DNA from: Chryseobacterium angstadtii
GTDB lineage: Bacteria > Bacteroidota > Bacteroidia > Flavobacteriales > Weeksellaceae
Direction of reading: 5' to 3'
Length of the DNA stretch: 64,000 nucleotides
Assembly (NCBI RefSeq): GCF_001045465.1
Contig: NZ_LFND01000006.1
Location: forward strand, 372,001 to 436,000
Below, one piece after another: positions 8,814 to 16,165 of this stretch. Both the position numbers and the translations under genes were made by a program. The stretch's first letter is position 1; every line of letters starts with the position of its first letter. A model generated the notes under the pieces. That model was given only the letters and a program-made list of their open reading frames with translations. It ran no database searches and had not been told where the DNA came from.

Positions 8814-9548
8814 CTAGGAAAAGACCTTCAGAAAATTATCTTTAAAACTTCCGGAAACTTCAATCTCCGTATCATCCGAAAGCATTACAGTACCACTTTT
8901 ATGGTAAGATTTTACAAATCCTGCATTGATGATATGGGACCTGTGAACTCTTACAAAAGGGTTTTCCAGTAAATCATCAAAATGCTTCAGGAACCGGCAG
9001 ACCATTTTTTTTGATCCGTCCGTAAGATAAACCTGGGTGAAATTTCCGTCGGCCTGCAATCTCAGGATATCTTCGGTTTTTACGACATCAAATCCCTGAA
9101 GTGTAGGTAAAATAAGCTGTTGCTTTTCAGGTTTAAGTTTTAAGTTTTCCAGAAGAATTTTATTCCGGTTGAGCTCTTCTTTTCTTTCAAGGCTTTCCGC
9201 CACCTTATTCACCGCCAGAATAAGCTCATGAATATCAATTGGTTTTAAAATATAATAACTTGCAGATTTATTAAGTGCCTGCAGGGAATACTGGGAAAAC
9301 GCCGTAATAAATATGGTTTCATAGGAAAAGTCTTTGGTAGCCTCTAGCACATCGAAAGCGTTTCCGAAAGGCATTTCCACATCCAGAAATACAAGCTGCG
9401 GCTGCACTTCAGCAATAAGAGGAACGGCTTCTTTGATATTTTCTGCTTCTCCAACTATTTCAACCTGCGGGCAGTATTTTGTGATATAATTTCTGAGAAC
9501 CTCTCTTGCAATGATTTCATCGTCTATGATTACGGATTTTATTTTCAT
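8814..9548 (-). CDS. LytTR family response regulator
   Basis: The 244-residue protein has an N-terminal receiver domain with the acidic pair at D9-D10, the phospho-acceptor D56 in LDVEMP and K102 in LKPID, followed by a LytTR DNA-binding domain (about 140-244) containing HRSHIINAGFV. LytTR proteins bind two direct repeats spaced about 21 bp. The cognate sensor is most likely the histidine kinase at 10359-12149, which belongs to the class usually paired with LytTR regulators. The two genes are separated only by one gene and a repeat tract. Three sites with the expected geometry lie at 12196-13292, so I infer that it controls those genes. Confidence 0.93.
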   Translation of the reverse strand: MKIKSVIIDDEIIAREVLRNYITKYCPQVEIVGEAENIKEAVPLIAEVQPQLVFLDVEMPFGNAFDVLEATKDFSYETIFITAFSQYSLQALNKSASYYILKPIDIHELILAVNKVAESLERKEELNRNKILLENLKLKPEKQQLILPTLQGFDVVKTEDILRLQADGNFTQVYLTDGSKKMVCRFLKHFDDLLENPFVRVHRSHIINAGFVKSYHKSGTVMLSDDTEIEVSGSFKDNFLKVFS

Positions 9549-9554
9549 TTTTTG

Positions 9555-9631
9555 GGGGATTAGATGGTAGGTTGTGAGTTGTTAGTTGCGGGTTTCGAGA
9601 TGCGGGTTACGGGTTACGGGGTGCGGGTTAC
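9555..9631. repeat. Degenerate 7-bp repeat tract (CYCGNAN on the minus strand)
   Basis: On the minus strand this reads as heptads: CCCGCAC, CCCGTAA, CCCGTAA, CCCGCAT, CTCGAAA, CCCGCAA, then weaker units. It fills the gap between the response regulator and the upstream gene, and its first unit contributes the TAA stop codon of that gene (9628-9630). The same unit type recurs at 25-133 and 60185-60240. Confidence 0.7.
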
Positions 9632-10347
9632 AGGTATTTGCCGTTTTTAAATTTTAAGATGCGGTAGGAGGTTTTGGAGGTTTCATTTTCTTTGCAGTCT
9701 CCGTTTACTTCTTTGGTTTTCCTGTTGACCGAAATGGTTTTGATTTTAAGATCTGTGAAATGATTCGTTTTTGTCTTGTCCATCATAATTACAGAATGAT
9801 CATCATCGGACTCACCGGTGCATCTAGTATCCCACTCTCCGCTGTAACGGCTTAATTCAAATTCATTTAAAACTTTTTTAAGGGTTTGCGCTGCAGGATA
9901 ATACAATGAGATCGTTTCTGAAGAATAAGGATTGGGCTGGCTGCCGTTTTGAACGTACACTTTCAAACCAAAAGCACGGATTTCGCTGCTAATGTTGTAC
10001 AGGCCAGTATCAATCGTTAAGCCTCTCAACATAATTGCATCTGAAGTAATTTCAACCGGATCAAAATACTGATTTTTAATTCCGCCCTTTTCATCTGTGA
10101 TCACAATATAATTCCGGATCACGAAAAAATCCTCTTCTTCTTTTCCTTGTAAAATAGGCAGAACAGCGATATAGGCATTTTCCGCATTCGGCATTTTCTT
10201 TTCTGTACAGAATTCTTCTTTAATTTTAACTTTATCCAGTTTTAAGCTTTTTATGATATTTTCAAACCGGACACTGTTGATTTCCTGCCCCTGCAAAACA
10301 CCGGCAAATGAAAAGATCATCATCCCTATGAATATATATTTCCTCAT
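9628..10347 (-). CDS. Secreted protein of unknown function in two-component locus
   Basis: I do not recognise this 239-residue protein. It has a clear signal peptide (residues 1-20, ending VLQGQ) and no further membrane segment, so it is probably periplasmic or outer-membrane associated. The body is of mixed composition, with two cysteines (in EFCTEK and DTRCTG) that could form a disulfide, and a third in the lysine- and glutamate-rich C-terminal part. It begins 11 bp after the histidine kinase gene and precedes the response regulator, so it is likely cotranscribed with the kinase and may be an accessory or signal-input component. That role is inferred from position only. Confidence 0.75.
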   Translation of the reverse strand: MRKYIFIGMMIFSFAGVLQGQEINSVRFENIIKSLKLDKVKIKEEFCTEKKMPNAENAYIAVLPILQGKEEEDFFVIRNYIVITDEKGGIKNQYFDPVEITSDAIMLRGLTIDTGLYNISSEIRAFGLKVYVQNGSQPNPYSSETISLYYPAAQTLKKVLNEFELSRYSGEWDTRCTGESDDDHSVIMMDKTKTNHFTDLKIKTISVNRKTKEVNGDCKENETSKTSYRILKFKNGKYL

Positions 10348-10358
10348 TTCTAAACGGT

Positions 10359-12149
10359 TTAAAAAAGATTGATTTTTATATTCACTACAACCCCGGCACC
10401 GTCTTCCTTATCTTTTATAGAACAGGTGATTTCTTTTTTGTAAAGGTCATTCAGCAGGCTGATTCTTTCCAGCGTATTTTTCATTCCGCGGCCTTCTCTG
10501 GTCTTCTGATGCTCGGTTTTCTGTTTTTTACTTTCCTCAATGCCTATTCCGTTATCTTCAACGGTGATTTTCAAATGCTGAGATTCTTTTGTAAAACTCA
10601 ATTTCAAAAATCCTTTGTCGCTTCTGTAGCGTAATCCGTGCCATACCGCATTTTCCAAGAACGGCTGAATAAGCATTCCGGGAACTTTGAGGCTTTGCAT
10701 ATTCAGGCTTTCGTCTACCTCAATTTCGTAATCAAATTTATCGGCAAAACGTGTTTTTTCTAAAGCCAGATAATTTTGAAGCAGATCCAGCTCCTGCTGA
10801 AAAGGAATAAAATCTTCGGCAGAGTTTTCCATGACGCCCCGCATCAGTTTGGAGAATTTCGTAAGATATTGGTTAGCTTCCAACTCGTTATTCGTTGCAA
10901 TAAAATGATTGACACTGTTTAAACTGTTAAAGATAAAATGCGGATTCATTTCACGCCGTAACGATTGTAAGGCTATTTTTTTGTTTTTAATCTGAACTTT
11001 CTTGAGCGTTCTGAAAATAAAGATGACCAGCCCGGTTAACAGAACCAAAACCCCGATCAGGCTGTAATTAAATACATTTTTCTTTCGGATGAGCGCATCT
11101 TTCAATTCTTTTTCTTTTTCCAACTGGGAAATTCTCTGTTCGGTATCTTCCAGTATTTTATTGTCTACAAGGCTTCTGTCTTTGGATACAAGATCCGGAA
11201 GCTTTCCGAGAAAATCTCTGTACAGCGAAACCGATGCGTCCGTATTTCCTGCTATATTATAAAGGCTGTCCAGTTTCTTGACACTTTTCTGAGCTTCCAT
11301 GGTATGGCCTTTTTCCAGGGCAATTCCATAGGCATTTTTTAAAAGAGCCACAGCTTCCCGGGGATCATTTTTCTTGATATAAATATCAGCCAGCTCCTGA
11401 ATCTGGTTGACTTTCTCCTGAGAATTTTCTTTAACAAAATCTTCTTTCAGGACGCTTTTTTTGGCTTCAATGGCTTTATCAAAATTCCTGTTTTCAACAT
11501 AAAAATTGGTCAGTTTCTGATTGATTTCCAACGCCTGCTGAGGGGCTTCTTTCTTGGAAATCACATAAGCATTATTCAGGTTTTCTTCCGCTTTGGGAAT
11601 ATCTTTCTGCTGAATATTCACATCTGCCATTTGGCTGTAACTGGCTGCAAGATCGCCTTTATCTTTTGTTTTAAGACCTATATTGATATTATCCTGAATG
11701 GCTTCTTCTTTTTGTTCGGCAGTAGGAGAAGAAAGTCTTGCCACATCATTGGCATTCACTGCCCTGCTCTTTTCACTGTAGCTTATCTCGGCAGCCATGC
11801 TGTAATTGCTGATTGCCGGAGTTATTTTGTTCTGCTTTTCCTGTGACTGAGCAATTTTCCGGGTAACAGATTCCAGATTTTTTTTATCATTAAGGTTTTT
11901 ATAAATAGTTCTGGCCTTCACCAAAAACTCTTCACTCTTGGCATAGTTTCCCTGATTATAGTAATTGTTGGCAATTCCTACATAGGTGTCGGCAACTCCT
12001 TTATCATCATTATTATCCACCGCTTTTTTCAGCTTCGCAGCAGATTTGTAGGCTTGGGTAACCCGCGTGGAATCCTGTGCTGTACAGAAATTTCCTGCAG
12101 CAAGAATGAAGATGAAGAATATTTTCACAATTAAATTCACGGATTTCAA
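10359..12149 (-). CDS. TPR-containing LytS-type sensor histidine kinase
   Basis: The 596-residue protein has a signal peptide (1-24), a periplasmic region of tetratricopeptide-like helical pairs (about 30-320), a short coiled segment, one membrane helix (361-380) and a cytoplasmic kinase. The phospho-acceptor is H404 in LRREMNPHFIFNSLNSV, the signature of the His_kinase (PF06580) class. The ATP-binding part has ENAVWHGL near 503 and EDNGIGI near 540. This architecture is common in Bacteroidetes and pairs with LytTR regulators, here the one at 8814-9548. A LytTR-type repeat pair at 12196-12226 lies in its own upstream region, suggesting autoregulation. Confidence 0.93.
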   Translation of the reverse strand: MKSVNLIVKIFFIFILAAGNFCTAQDSTRVTQAYKSAAKLKKAVDNNDDKGVADTYVGIANNYYNQGNYAKSEEFLVKARTIYKNLNDKKNLESVTRKIAQSQEKQNKITPAISNYSMAAEISYSEKSRAVNANDVARLSSPTAEQKEEAIQDNINIGLKTKDKGDLAASYSQMADVNIQQKDIPKAEENLNNAYVISKKEAPQQALEINQKLTNFYVENRNFDKAIEAKKSVLKEDFVKENSQEKVNQIQELADIYIKKNDPREAVALLKNAYGIALEKGHTMEAQKSVKKLDSLYNIAGNTDASVSLYRDFLGKLPDLVSKDRSLVDNKILEDTEQRISQLEKEKELKDALIRKKNVFNYSLIGVLVLLTGLVIFIFRTLKKVQIKNKKIALQSLRREMNPHFIFNSLNSVNHFIATNNELEANQYLTKFSKLMRGVMENSAEDFIPFQQELDLLQNYLALEKTRFADKFDYEIEVDESLNMQSLKVPGMLIQPFLENAVWHGLRYRSDKGFLKLSFTKESQHLKITVEDNGIGIEESKKQKTEHQKTREGRGMKNTLERISLLNDLYKKEITCSIKDKEDGAGVVVNIKINLF

Positions 12150-12159
12150 ATCTTTAATG

Positions 12160-12167
12160 CAAAGTAA
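12160..12167 (-). promoter_or_regulatory. Possible -7 box of the histidine kinase gene
   Basis: On the minus strand the sequence is TTACTTTG, matching TAnnTTTG in seven of eight positions, with the kinase start codon only about 10 bp downstream. It lies 28 bp from the nearest LytTR-type repeat unit (12196). Confidence 0.35.
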
Positions 12168-12195: not shown

Positions 12196-12226
12196 TTTAC
12201 CAAGTCAAAACCTTATTTCACCCAGT
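12196..12226. promoter_or_regulatory. Candidate LytTR operator upstream of histidine kinase
   Basis: TTTACCAAGT at 12196-12205 and TTCACCCAGT at 12217-12226 are direct repeats exactly 21 bp apart. They match the two cleaner sites at 12434-12464 and 13262-13292 in unit sequence and spacing. The site is 47-77 bp upstream of the kinase start codon. Confidence 0.5.
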
Positions 12227-12344
12227 TCTGTACCTTCAGGAATGTACAACGGACAATTTGAAACTTAAAATCAAAAGATAAGTTTTGGGACTGAATGCAG
12301 AACTGAAGGACCAATCCTTGTCAAGGTTTTGAATTTTGACAAGG
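12223..12344. other. Inverted repeats in the gap between kinase and SIMPL genes
   Basis: The 374-bp gap 12150-12523 holds, besides the operators, several inverted repeats: CAGTTCTG with CAGAACTG, CCTTCAG with CTGAAGG, AAACTTA with TAAGTTT, and CCTTGTCAA (12316-12324) with TTGACAAGG (12336-12344). No gene fits. The last hairpin could end transcription but lacks a T-run. Confidence 0.4.
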
Positions 12345-12433
12345 GTTATTGATTAAGATACGGGTGGTTTAAAATTTAATTTCAAAACGCTTTAAAAGGC
12401 AAGTGTTAAAGGAATCCCGCCTTTTTCCAGCCA

Positions 12434-12464
12434 TCCACCAAGTGAAAAGCTTCTTTCACCAAGT
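12434..12464 (+). promoter_or_regulatory. Candidate LytTR operator upstream of the SIMPL gene
   Basis: CACCAAGT occurs at 12436-12443 and 12457-12464, period 21 bp. Read on the other strand it is ACTTGGTGA, 12 bp, ACTTGGTGG, the 9-N12-9 arrangement known for LytTR sites. The right edge is 27 bp from the -7 box at 12492 and 59 bp from the start codon. Confidence 0.65.
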
Positions 12465-12491
12465 CTCTTCATTCCGGGTTTCCTATCGCCG

Positions 12492-12499
12492 TAATTTTA
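12492..12499 (+). promoter_or_regulatory. -7 box of the SIMPL gene
   Basis: TAATTTTA matches the Bacteroidetes -7 consensus TAnnTTTG in seven of eight positions. The wider context TAATTTTACTnCAG is repeated at the same distance from the operator in front of the DUF4139 gene, which supports it as a real promoter. No good TTTG is present at -33, in keeping with activator dependence. Confidence 0.55.
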
Positions 12500-12523
12500 C
12501 TCCAGAATTTAAAACAAGAAATT

Positions 12524-13198
12524 ATGAAATTGAGACATTTTTTATTAATCGGAATCTTTACTCTGGGAAGTTTTGTTCATGCACAGGAAGTAAAGAAAAA
12601 TGCTATTGAAGTAACAGGTATTGCAGAAATGGAAGTGGAACCGGATGAGATCATCTTCAGCATCGGCATTAAAGCGGATAACAAAAACGATCTGGCAGAC
12701 AATGAAAAGAAACTGTTTGAAACATTGAAAAATTCCGGCGTAAAGAACGAGGACATTAAGTTTAAATCTATGTACCAGAATATATACGCCAAAAACGGAA
12801 AGTTCACAAAAAGCTACCAGTTCAAAGCCAGTACAAAAGCCAATATCAGTAAGTTATTCGAAGATCTGAATCAGAAATGGGTAAGCAACCTGAATATTGC
12901 AGAAGTGAAGAATACAAAAATCGCCGACTTCAAGAAAACAGTGAAGATCAATGCTTTAAAAGCAGCCAGAGAAAAGGCAGATTATCTTCTGGAAAGCATG
13001 GGCAAAAAGACCGGCGCACCTCTTGAGATCATCGAAATTGAAGACTATACCAGCGATATGATTCTTCCCGCAGCTTATAAAAGCAGCATGAGCAATGTAC
13101 GGCTTGAGGCGGCAGATGCTCCGGTAGATTTTTCTTTTGATAATATTGAGAATATCAAACTTAAATACAGTATCAAAACAAGATACGAAATCCTTTAA
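12524..13198 (+). CDS. SIMPL (DUF541) domain protein
   Basis: The 224-residue protein has a signal peptide (1-20, ending VHAQ) and one SIMPL/DUF541 domain over the rest, opening with the typical VTGIAEMEVEPDEIIFSIGI. A helix rich in AREKADYLLESMGKKTG and a final KYSIKTRYEI strand are also family features. SIMPL proteins such as E. coli YggE are periplasmic or outer-membrane proteins linked to stress tolerance, with no known catalysis. The gene is preceded by a LytTR-type operator and followed by its own terminator. The next gene, DUF4139, has an almost identical control region. Confidence 0.9.
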   Translation: MKLRHFLLIGIFTLGSFVHAQEVKKNAIEVTGIAEMEVEPDEIIFSIGIKADNKNDLADNEKKLFETLKNSGVKNEDIKFKSMYQNIYAKNGKFTKSYQFKASTKANISKLFEDLNQKWVSNLNIAEVKNTKIADFKKTVKINALKAAREKADYLLESMGKKTGAPLEIIEIEDYTSDMILPAAYKSSMSNVRLEAADAPVDFSFDNIENIKLKYSIKTRYEIL

Positions 13199-13214
13199 AA
13201 TTAACAGATTTAAG

Positions 13215-13246
13215 AAACAGTCCGAAAGGGCTGTTTTTCTTTTTTA
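13215..13246 (+). terminator. Terminator after the SIMPL gene
   Basis: AACAGTCC pairs with GGGCTGTT (one G-T wobble) around a GAAA loop, followed by a long T-rich run. It separates the SIMPL gene from the DUF4139-VWA operon. Confidence 0.7.
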
Positions 13247-13261
13247 GCCCCGGTATTTAAG

Positions 13262-13292
13262 TTCACCAAGTGAAAGCAGGGTTTCACCAAGT
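13262..13292 (+). promoter_or_regulatory. Candidate LytTR operator upstream of the DUF4139 gene
   Basis: TTCACCAAGT occurs at 13262-13271 and again at 13283-13292, an exact ten-base direct repeat with a 21-bp period. It is 27 bp from the -7 box and 60 bp from the start codon, the same layout as the SIMPL site. Confidence 0.7.
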
Positions 13293-13319: not shown

Positions 13320-13327
13320 TAATTTTA
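13320..13327 (+). promoter_or_regulatory. -7 box of the DUF4139-VWA operon
   Basis: TAATTTTA followed by CTACAG, closely matching the SIMPL promoter (TAATTTTA, CTCCAG) and at the same 27-bp distance from the operator. Confidence 0.55.
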
Positions 13328-13352: not shown

Positions 13353-14954
13353 ATGAAACGCTATTTAATACTATTCATTACATTCTCTGTTTCCCTGTTA
13401 CGGGCACAGGAAATTAAAAAAGAAATTGAAGTAAAACAGGCCACTGTATTTCTTCAGGGAGCCAAAGTTTTCGGAAGCACCAATGTAAGTCTTCAGAAGG
13501 GAAGAAATAAGGTGAGAATCATTAACCTTCCCAATAATCTGGATGAGAATACTTACAAAATCAATCTTGAAAAAAGCACGACTCTTCTTTCTATAACGCC
13601 TCAAAGTAATTTTTTGAAAACGGAAGATCTGTCCGAAGGTGAAAAGAAACTGGATGATGAGAGAAAGAAACTGCAAAAACAGGTTAATCTGCTGAATATT
13701 CAGATTAAAAATCTAACGGGTGAACAAAACATCATTAATGACAATTTAAAAGTCTCTACCAATGATAAATCCACTCCGCAGGAACAACTGATTAAGCTAA
13801 CCGAATTTTACAGAAAAAGAATGCTGGAAATAGATAATCAGGTTTTTATTTTGAATGAGCAAAAAGCTGTTTTAGACGAAGGTATTGCTAAGATTAATAA
13901 GCAATACGCAGAAGAGCAGACCCACAAAAATACCAACAGAAAAGAACTTATTCTGGAAATCCTTGCAGACCGCGAAACCAATCTCAATCTGGGAGTAAGT
14001 TATATCGTTTCTGATGCAGGCTGGATACCGTCTTATGATCTGCGGGCAGAATCTGTGAAGAAACCACTCGAAATGGTTTACAAAGGAAAAATCTATCAAA
14101 AAACCGGACAGGACTGGAAAAATGTAAAGCTTTTTGTTTCTACCTACAGACCATCTTACAATCAGGACAGACCTATTCTTTCTCCTCTTTACGTTGCTGA
14201 ATACACTCCTTACAATGAACGGGCTGAAACCGCCAACTACAGTTTGAAAGCTGCTACAAAAGAAGTGAATTCCTACCAGATAAGACAGGATGCCGCTATT
14301 TCGCAAAGCCAGATTCCGGTAGCTACTGTTTCGGACAGCCAGATGAACGTTATTTATGAACTTAATTACGAACAAACCATAGTAAGTCAGGAAAAAGAAC
14401 AGTATGTCATCCTTGATAAAAAACAGATTGACGCTACCTACAAATACCACACGGTTCCGAAACTGAACAATCAGGTGTTCCTGATGGCCTTTATTAAAAA
14501 CTGGCAGAACCTCAATCTGATCTCGGGAGAAGCCAATATTTATTTTGAAGATAATTATATCGGAAAAACAAATATCACCAGCCATTATGTAAAAGATGAA
14601 TTCCCGATTTCCCTGGGTGTAGATGAAAGAATCACCGTAAAAAGGATTAAACTGGAAGACAAAACATCCCAAAAGAACTTTAACACCAATAAATGGGAAA
14701 CAGAATCTTTCCAAATCATTATCAGAAACAATACAAAAGAAAATATTGAACTGGAAATCCTTGATCAGCTCCCGATCAGCGAAAATTCTAAAATACAGGT
14801 CAAAGCCTTAGAAATAGGCAACGGAAGCCTTGACGGGAAAACAGGAAGCATTCTTTGGACCAGAAACATCGGCAGCGGAAGTTCGGACAAGATTAATTTC
14901 TCTTACGAAGTGAAGTATCCAAAAGACATGCAGATTCAATATTACAGCAGATAA
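13353..14954 (+). CDS. DUF4139 (mucoidy inhibitor MuiA-type) protein
   Basis: The 533-residue protein has a short signal peptide (about 1-18), an N-terminal DUF4140 domain that opens with IEVKQATVFLQGAKVFGS, a coiled coil at about 90-190, and a C-terminal DUF4139 domain (about 205-530) with SYIVSDAGWIPSYDLRAE and a final SYEVKYPKDMQI. Proteins of this build are widespread in Bacteroidetes; one is named for a mucoidy-inhibitor relative, but no biochemical role is established. It is the first gene of an operon with the VWA gene 17 bp downstream and has a LytTR-type operator, so it probably belongs to an envelope-response regulon. Confidence 0.9.
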   Translation: MKRYLILFITFSVSLLRAQEIKKEIEVKQATVFLQGAKVFGSTNVSLQKGRNKVRIINLPNNLDENTYKINLEKSTTLLSITPQSNFLKTEDLSEGEKKLDDERKKLQKQVNLLNIQIKNLTGEQNIINDNLKVSTNDKSTPQEQLIKLTEFYRKRMLEIDNQVFILNEQKAVLDEGIAKINKQYAEEQTHKNTNRKELILEILADRETNLNLGVSYIVSDAGWIPSYDLRAESVKKPLEMVYKGKIYQKTGQDWKNVKLFVSTYRPSYNQDRPILSPLYVAEYTPYNERAETANYSLKAATKEVNSYQIRQDAAISQSQIPVATVSDSQMNVIYELNYEQTIVSQEKEQYVILDKKQIDATYKYHTVPKLNNQVFLMAFIKNWQNLNLISGEANIYFEDNYIGKTNITSHYVKDEFPISLGVDERITVKRIKLEDKTSQKNFNTNKWETESFQIIIRNNTKENIELEILDQLPISENSKIQVKALEIGNGSLDGKTGSILWTRNIGSGSSDKINFSYEVKYPKDMQIQYYSR

Positions 14955-14971: not shown

Positions 14972-16165
14972 ATGACAACTTTAAAAATCTTAGCAATGAC
15001 AGCTGCAACCGCTTTTTTAAGCTCAGGCAGTTTTTCAGACATCCGCTGTTCAAACAGCACAACAACAGACAGAGCAACATTGGTACAGAATGCTTCTATA
15101 CCCAAGATACCCACTCCGTCAAAAGACAATAAAATTCAGGTTGCCCTTCTTCTTGATACGTCCAACAGTATGGACGGCCTTATTGATCAGGCTAAATCAA
15201 GGCTGTGGAATATTGTGAATACATTAACCACATTAAAGTATAACGGACAGGCTCCTCAGATAGAAATTGCGCTTTATGAGTATGGTAATGACGGGATTCA
15301 TGATGAGAACTACATCCGCCAGGTAGCCCCATTAACACAGGATCTTGATTTGGTTTCTGAAAAATTATTCGCCCTGAGAACCAATGGCGGCAGCGAATAC
15401 TGCGGTGCTGTGATCCGGGATGCTTCCATGAATCTGAACTGGGACGGCAACGAAAAAAGCATGAAACTGATCTACATTGCAGGAAATGAACCTTTTGACC
15501 AGGGAAGGGTAAATTACAAAGAAGTGATCTCCAAAGCCAAGAGTAAAAACATCTACACCAATACTATTTTCTGCGGAAGCAAAGAGGAAGGAATCCAAAC
15601 TTTCTGGCAGAACGGCTCTGTTCTCGGCGGCGGAAAATATTTCAATATCGACAGTGACAGGAAGGTGATTTATATTGAAACGCCTTATGATGTGAGAATT
15701 TCAGAATGCAATACAAAACTGAATGACACCTACATCTACTACGGAAGTCATGGCTCCGAATATAAGCTAAAACAGGCAGCTCAGGACAAGAATGCAGAAG
15801 TACAGTCCGTATCCAATTATGTGGAAAGAACCGTTGCCAAGTCTAAAAAGAATGCTTACAAAAATGATCATTGGGACCTTGTAGACAAAGCTGAAAAAGA
15901 TGCCGGATTTATTGCTACCGTTAAAGACGATGCACTTCCCGCCGAACTGAAAGGTAAAAGCAAAGAAGAGATTAAAAAAGCGGTTGCCGTAAAATCTACC
16001 GAACGGGGAAAAATCCAGAAGGAAATTGAGGAACTGTCCGGAAAACGTCAGAAATACATTGATGCTGAAATGAAAAAAAGAGGCAGTACAGATGCCGATG
16101 ATCTTGGAAAAGCTATTGAAAGATCAATCCTTGATCAGGCCAAAAAGAATGGCTACACCCAGTAA
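14972..16165 (+). CDS. Secreted von Willebrand factor A domain protein
   Basis: The 397-residue protein has an N-terminal hydrophobic export segment (about 4-20), a VWA domain (about 55-250) with an intact metal site DTSNS at 62-66, and a C-terminal lysine- and glutamate-rich helical region (about 270-397). VWA domains bind protein partners through a metal ion. The segment LRTNGGSEYCGAVI with its cysteine is conserved-looking, but I cannot assign it. It follows the DUF4139 gene by 17 bp and is surely cotranscribed. The operon ends in a strong terminator. Confidence 0.9.
   Translation: MTTLKILAMTAATAFLSSGSFSDIRCSNSTTTDRATLVQNASIPKIPTPSKDNKIQVALLLDTSNSMDGLIDQAKSRLWNIVNTLTTLKYNGQAPQIEIALYEYGNDGIHDENYIRQVAPLTQDLDLVSEKLFALRTNGGSEYCGAVIRDASMNLNWDGNEKSMKLIYIAGNEPFDQGRVNYKEVISKAKSKNIYTNTIFCGSKEEGIQTFWQNGSVLGGGKYFNIDSDRKVIYIETPYDVRISECNTKLNDTYIYYGSHGSEYKLKQAAQDKNAEVQSVSNYVERTVAKSKKNAYKNDHWDLVDKAEKDAGFIATVKDDALPAELKGKSKEEIKKAVAVKSTERGKIQKEIEELSGKRQKYIDAEMKKRGSTDADDLGKAIERSILDQAKKNGYTQ

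Follow-up and report, generated by a model that had tools for sequence, protein, structure and literature searches.

Paired direct repeats with a 21-bp period in Chryseobacterium are very probably docking sites of a nearby LytTR two-component regulator

Published LytTR operators consist of 9-bp direct repeats with spacers of 11 to 13 bp, located just upstream of a promoter (PMC6193735). In Streptococcus mutans, the LytTR Regulatory Systems (LRS) HdrR and BrsR have two direct repeats of 9 bp, mostly with 12-bp spacers, upstream of the promoter, and they regulate their own operons; their regulators pair with a membrane inhibitor protein (PMC6193735). LRS-like operons of Bacteroides thetaiotaomicron and B. 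ovatus carry direct repeats with a 22-bp period (11-bp repeats, 11-bp spacer) upstream of a Bacteroidetes promoter given as TGTA-19 bp-TATCTTTG, and their LytTR proteins have membrane segments (PMC6193735). In Staphylococcus aureus, a dimer of the LytTR protein AgrA sits on two direct repeats upstream of promoters P2 and P3, in the position of an activator (PMC4227749). LytS/LytR-type systems, such as BtsSR, combine a PF06580 kinase domain with a LytTR regulator. The LytTR half-site consensus has a GTT core.

We analyzed a 64,000-nt stretch of Chryseobacterium angstadtii contig NZ_LFND01000006.1, which we call the window; positions are 1-based within it. The genes under consideration are as follows.

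8814..9548, minus strand: LytTR response regulator (receiver plus LytTR DNA-binding domain; PF00072 at 3e-15, PF04397 at 4.9e-11), the proposed operator binder
9628..10347, minus strand: PA3715-family protein (NCBIfam NF052451 at 4.7e-60), between kinase and regulator
10359..12149, minus strand: TPR-containing sensor histidine kinase (Pfam His_kinase PF06580 plus HATPase_c)
12524..13198, plus strand: SIMPL (DUF541) protein (Pfam PF04402 at 1.8e-19), proposed target
13353..14954, plus strand: DUF4139/DUF4140 protein of the mucoidy inhibitor MuiA family (PF13598 at 1.4e-47, PF13600 at 5.1e-14, TIGR02231 at 1.7e-76), proposed target
14972..16165, plus strand: VWA-domain protein (PF00092 at 3.2e-6), second gene of the DUF4139-VWA operon, proposed target

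With 56.8 bits for PF00072 (cut-off 30.2) and 43.2 bits for PF04397 (cut-off 22.6), the regulator qualifies as a LytTR response regulator, and a PDB sequence search returned receiver-domain relatives among its best 60 matches. In S. mutans the partner is a membrane inhibitor, whereas here a regulator with a receiver domain stands beside a His_kinase/HATPase_c sensor kinase (PMC6193735); the membrane inhibitor in place of a sensor kinase that marks an LRS was not found at this locus. The combination of a PF06580 kinase domain with a LytTR regulator is that of LytS/LytR-type systems. Unlike in those systems, however, the kinase has TPR repeats, and the regulator falls far below the NCBIfam equivalog cut-offs for both BtsR (98 of 246 bits) and LytR (86.3 of 375 bits). 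Because the kinase, PA3715-family, and LytTR genes follow one another in this order on the minus strand and are closely spaced, they probably form one operon, which would make the system auto-regulated. Apparent signal peptides and a transmembrane segment suggest that the SIMPL, DUF4139, and VWA proteins are exported and that the TPR part of the kinase may sense in the periplasm. The kinase frame opens at TTG 12149, and the leader of the kinase transcript would be very short; when orthologues are compared by eye, the start codon is probably GTG 12140, a position that they keep.

Reading of the sequence together with a pattern scan identified three pairs of 10-bp direct repeats, all in plus orientation and all with a 21-bp period.

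12196..12226, plus strand: operator 1, TTTACCAAGT-N11-TTCACCCAGT (halves at 12196/12217, one mismatch in each), flanked by the divergent kinase promoter and a decayed plus-strand promoter
12434..12464, plus strand: operator 2, TCCACCAAGT-N11-TTCACCAAGT (halves at 12434/12455, one mismatch in the first), SIMPL promoter
13262..13292, plus strand: operator 3, TTCACCAAGT-N11-TTCACCAAGT (halves at 13262/13283, both perfect), promoter of the DUF4139-VWA operon

An initial annotation of this DNA had reported three such pairs, and the 21-bp spacing between repeat starts that it gave is present in each. It located the first and third pairs exactly and the second, at 12436/12457, 2 bp off; it also assigned only two of the three to the plus strand, whereas operator 1 has plus orientation as well. 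Halves of 10 bp with an N11 spacer fall within the LytTR operator format of 9- to 11-bp direct repeats and 11- to 13-bp spacers. The half-site, ACCAAGTSA, has no GTT at the consensus core position. Operon repeats that diverge from the LytTR consensus have also been reported (PMC6193735). The S. mutans repeats (e.g., ACCACTTAC) share ACCA with the half-site found here and otherwise differ in sequence, while the Bacteroides systems differ in repeat length and sequence, in the membrane segments of the LytTR protein, and in partner domains (PMC6193735). AgrA differs in repeat sequence, signal, and targets, and P2 and P3 each have repeats, whereas here one site lies between two promoters (PMC4227749).

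Single 10-mers with up to two mismatches showed no enrichment in the window (60 against an expected 72), so the signal lies in the pairing of the repeats. We carried out the genome scan that had been proposed along with the repeats. Across the whole genome, with both halves matched to HCACCAAGT, up to two mismatches yielded four pairs (the three window sites and one other) against one in a reversed control, and up to three mismatches yielded 14 pairs against 21. Only the three window sites among these 14 carry a conserved [GC]AAA extension. After correction for strand, the other 11 pairs all lacked both this extension and a -7 box 27 or 28 bp away, and we claim none of these places as part of a wider regulon in C. 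angstadtii.

The operators of the window stand at a fixed distance from likely promoter elements.

12160..12167, minus strand: -7 box TTACTTTG of the kinase operon, 28 bp from operator 1 on the kinase side
12253..12260, plus strand: ACAATTTG, probable decayed -7 box of a plus-strand promoter, 26 bp downstream of operator 1, with no gene following
12492..12499, plus strand: -7 box TAATTTTA of the SIMPL gene, 27 bp from operator 2
13320..13327, plus strand: -7 box TAATTTTA of the DUF4139-VWA operon, 27 bp from operator 3

At operators 2 and 3 we recovered the geometry first noticed, an identical TAATTTTA exactly 27 bp downstream and the ATG at 59 and 60 bp. The -7 box of Bacteroidetes sigma-A and of flavobacteria is given as TAnnTTTG (PMC9723704). 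The boxes of the window conform to it closely: TTACTTTG is off by one base, and the target boxes TAATTTTA are off in the last base. Operator 1 carries the [GC]AAA extension but has no TAnnTTT box at 27 or 28 bp.

The initial annotation had named a lack of conservation upstream of orthologous genes as grounds for rejecting the regulon. We examined 77 regions, made up of 60 around orthologous clusters, 16 further useful ones (including three other genera), and the window, and we counted a site when it had up to two mismatches and lay within 160 bp upstream of the gene; genes were excluded if their match started beyond residue 45 or fell too close to the end of the locus. The repeats proved to be conserved: a site precedes SIMPL in 65 of 67 cases, DUF4139 in 34 of 36, and the kinase in 72 of 73, and it precedes other genes (LytTR, the PA3715 gene, CinA, GH18, CRP-like, FAD oxidoreductase, and one more) in 0 of 255. 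Both SIMPL exceptions (L105 and L122) have the site beyond 160 bp, where a 200-bp window found it. At the DUF4139 exceptions, another gene intervenes (L133) or the site lies ~150 bp before the frame (L195); in G175, the kinase has no site before it. A site precedes the VWA gene in 9 of 54 loci, and none of these 9 has a DUF4139 match; loci that lack DUF4139 may keep the site in front of VWA. The PA3715-family gene was counted in 26 loci and was missing from view in many relatives.

The layout of the sites was as constant as their position. When the period of the best pair was left free between 11 and 40, it was 21 in all 67 SIMPL promoters, in 34 of 36 DUF4139 promoters, and in 71 of 73 kinase promoters. 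A consensus of 192 sites reads TTCACCAAGT-[GC]AAA-N7-TTCACCAAGT, with conservation of 0.77 to 1.0 in half-site columns against 0.41 to 0.55 in spacer columns, the half-site figure being biased upward because the rows were chosen by pattern. A TAnnTTT[AGT] box follows 27 or 28 bp after 154 of the 192 sites (1.7 expected), which places them just upstream of promoters. Among the 80 closest LytTR loci (88 to 97% identity, all but one from Chryseobacterium), every one has at least one site: 6 have one, 33 two, 39 three, and 2 four. Throughout the genus, 169 of 173 genomes contain a pair at up to two mismatches, a count that includes chance pairs, since the reversed control also matches in many genomes. 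Targets that are unlinked from the regulator still have sites, whether ~2 Mb (G003) or ~210 kb (G029) away along the contig or on another contig (G175).

The role of operator 1 required separate consideration. On the kinase side, a T[AT]NCTTTG box at a gap of 27 or 28 bp gave 69 matches over 70 sites (TATCTTTG in 44, TTACTTTG in 25), and the kinase operator thus lies about equally far from two divergent promoters. Given its plus orientation and the plus-strand gene that stands behind it in many relatives and is absent here, operator 1 looks like a shared divergent operator. The 72 kinase-side sites precede a second SIMPL paralogue in 18 cases, a 191-aa protein in 7, a 461-aa VWA protein in 5 (Pfam was run on three representatives of the genes behind these sites), the SIMPL gene itself in 5, other frames in 13 (10 of them of 583 to 587 aa), and nothing callable in 24. 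The kinase had been listed as a member of the regulon, and the site before it in 72 of 73 loci agrees with this; an operator for the kinase only is not what we found, as in relatives the same site often also precedes a plus-strand gene.

It could instead be that operator 1 served only the lost plus-strand gene, that the kinase is no target, and that the site is a relic here. We regard this as unlikely, though it accounts for the orientation that operator 1 shares with operators 2 and 3, for the genes found behind the site in relatives, and for the ACAATTTG left in the window where a plus-side box would be, with no gene behind it. However, 37 of the 72 sites kept before the kinase have no plus-side -7 box, the -7 box of the kinase keeps its distance of 27 to 28 bp to the operator, and the kinase loci of G003 and G029 have a site despite lying far from the SIMPL locus.

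We consider it highly likely that the three pairs are operators of the LytTR regulator at 8814-9548, in an auto-regulated TPR-kinase/LytTR system that probably activates the SIMPL, DUF4139, and VWA genes. Under this model, which draws on sequence comparison, the TPR-domain sensor kinase (10359-12149) would sense a signal, probably in the periplasm, and phosphorylate the LytTR regulator, whose need for phosphorylation we infer. Two LytTR domains would then bind both half-sites on one face of the DNA, since 21 bp make two helical turns, at about -40 to -70. Bound in this way, LytTR would help RNA polymerase at the -7 box 27 to 28 bp further on, and the SIMPL gene and the DUF4139-VWA operon would be switched on. 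Operator 1, between the promoter of the kinase operon and, in many relatives, a plus-strand promoter, would let the system control its own operon. The kinase site is read in the opposite sense, so that this autoregulation may be of either sign. Counting against the model, kinase-side sites are more decayed where no plus-strand box faces them (mean of 0.97 mismatches versus 0.31).

The regulator might repress these promoters rather than activate them, a reading that we judge improbable. In its favor, the kinase promoter of some relatives has near-consensus -33 and -7 elements by eye, and activation would be unneeded there. Against it, the position of the sites is not over the promoter but upstream of it, from about -40 to -70, which is the place of published LytTR activators (PMC6193735, PMC4227749). 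Moreover, we saw no clear -33 element by eye at the SIMPL and DUF4139 promoters. Half-sites two turns apart, centered near -55, at promoters of this kind fit an activator that touches RNA polymerase.

We then compared the distribution of the sites with that of the regulator. With an orthologue of LytTR defined by a best E below 1e-100, 11 of the 173 Chryseobacterium genomes have none. Our sample comprised 149 genomes of the genus, 140 with and 9 without the orthologue; G128 and G135, incomplete assemblies (75 and 73%) with sites and no full LytTR match, were left out. The exact HCACCAAGY pair occurred in 129 of the 140 genomes with the orthologue and in 1 of the 9 without it; Fisher values in our co-occurrence comparisons are inflated by the relatedness of the genomes. 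In the one exception without an orthologue (G020), a contig ends 1.7 kb from the site, and all 11 genomes with an orthologue and no exact pair have matches at up to two mismatches. Among 35 genomes of other genera in the family, the three with an orthologue (85, 76, and 71% identity) all have exact pairs. In one genus, G206 has both regulator and site and G176 has neither. Exact pairs also turned up in 2 of the 32 genomes without an orthologue (G260 and G297); these have neither the [GC]AAA extension nor the box, and we took them as chance. In the eight complete Chryseobacterium genomes without LytTR, the SIMPL, VWA, and LytTR genes are absent together, which indicates that the module moves as a block and that co-occurrence cannot separate LytTR from the rest of it.

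More distant regulators provided a finer comparison. Among 346 genomes of the order, a genus of a different family (g35 of f3), perhaps Flavobacterium, has LytTR proteins at 65 to 69% identity; there, the operator (at least 16 of 20 letters) was found in 12 of 12 loci, beside the kinase and with a SIMPL paralogue, a VWA gene or (in L246) some other gene behind it, and the box lies at a gap of 27 in 18 of 18 sites. Where the LytTR protein of this family is at 46 to 48% identity, beside kinase and SIMPL or VWA genes, a TTYACTCAWT-like repeat with the same 21-bp period appeared in all five loci examined. Four of these changed repeats (L256, L257, L258, and L260) score 17 to 19, which 0 of 1,000 letter shuffles reached in each case; that of L255 is weak, with 15 of 20 letters, which 7 of 1,000 shuffles reached. 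Exact TTHACTCAWT pairs were present in 6 of 16 genomes with a LytTR at 44 to 49% identity versus 2 of 330 others, a count that treats two samples with the same size and handles as identical. A box at 28 bp accompanies 6 of the 11 pairs in the former genomes and 0 of the 2 in the latter; the pair of G384, which has no -7 box at 28, may be a chance match like those of G471 and G062. The TTYACTCAWT operator also stands at unlinked targets (L261-L273), before genes for a VWA/TonB-plug protein and a DUF6146 protein, suggesting that the regulon there may be larger.

In a LytTR tree of 44 rows, the five rows with the changed repeat (CTCATT) form one clade (100/100) inside a module clade of 34 rows (100/99); in the ten outer rows, no site was found in the DNA examined, which amounted to only ~3.7 kb for nine of them. 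Within the DNA-binding part of the protein, 18 columns separate the two repeat types. One protein from another family (L254 of f7, 46% identity) falls with the CTCATT side, yet its locus has a perfect TTCACCAAGT pair at 13945 (turned), with no TAnnTTT box within 45 bp. In this protein, 5 of the 18 columns, including Met182, Cys184, and Arg185, match the CCAAGT clade, and 13 differ from it. This one informative case, which is not proof, suggests that Cys184-Arg185 may go with the AAGT half-site. Overall conservation of the protein lends no support, because the DNA-binding part (0.945) is no more conserved than the receiver (0.952).

These results bear on whether the sites, although real operators, belong to another transcription factor, one that accompanies the module or has its gene elsewhere. 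What co-occurs with the sites is the whole module and not LytTR alone. However, the regulatory genes that stay constant across the loci are the kinase (74 of 77) and LytTR (73 of 77), while 8 were counted with a CRP-like gene; direct repeats in pairs, two helical turns apart and immediately before a promoter, match the form described for LytTR operators (PMC6193735); and the repeat type follows the LytTR tree, down to the Cys184-Arg185 pair and its AAGT half. We therefore find a different factor highly improbable and favor LytTR as the candidate binder. That the repeats are chance matches or a dispersed element without regulatory role is a reading we give almost no weight, since it fits only the count at up to three mismatches, where pairs are no commoner in this genome than in the control, and is already contradicted by placement, period, and -7 distance conserved in two families.

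The grouping of the kinase, SIMPL, and DUF4139-VWA genes in a single regulon, as the initial annotation had put forward, gains support from the conserved placement of the sites, their co-occurrence with LytTR, the change of the repeat as LytTR diverges, and the sites at unlinked genes. A broader picture, to which we give about as much credence as doubt, would be a so far unrecognized envelope response across the Flavobacteriales in which the TPR kinase and LytTR control apparently exported SIMPL, DUF4139, and VWA proteins that act jointly, in which operator and regulator coevolve (AAGT with Cys184-Arg185, CATT with Ser-Lys), and in which one operator serves two divergent promoters at nearly equal distance. 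The SIMPL, DUF4139/DUF4140, and these VWA proteins have no settled function in the family libraries that we searched. A common operator across genera, present even at unlinked genes, indicates joint expression and probably a joint function, and the predicted operator names a regulator and sensor through which the genes could be switched. The matched series of regulators and operators also offers material for studying how LytTR specificity evolves.

Our literature search on LytTR in Flavobacteria and Bacteroidetes, which covered mostly freely accessible papers, found no paper on this operator, and the only Bacteroidota LytTR repeats that it found were those of Bacteroides (PMC6193735). A search on SIMPL/DUF541 and DUF4139 returned no title on their regulation in this bacterial group. 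In Flavobacterium johnsoniae, parallel mutations have been described in a LytTR regulator and a histidine kinase of neighboring number (PMC10197871). Finally, a 9-bp inverted repeat, CCTTGTCAA ... TTGACAAGG, lies at ~12317-12345 between operators 1 and 2 and may be a terminator or a remnant of the lost gene.
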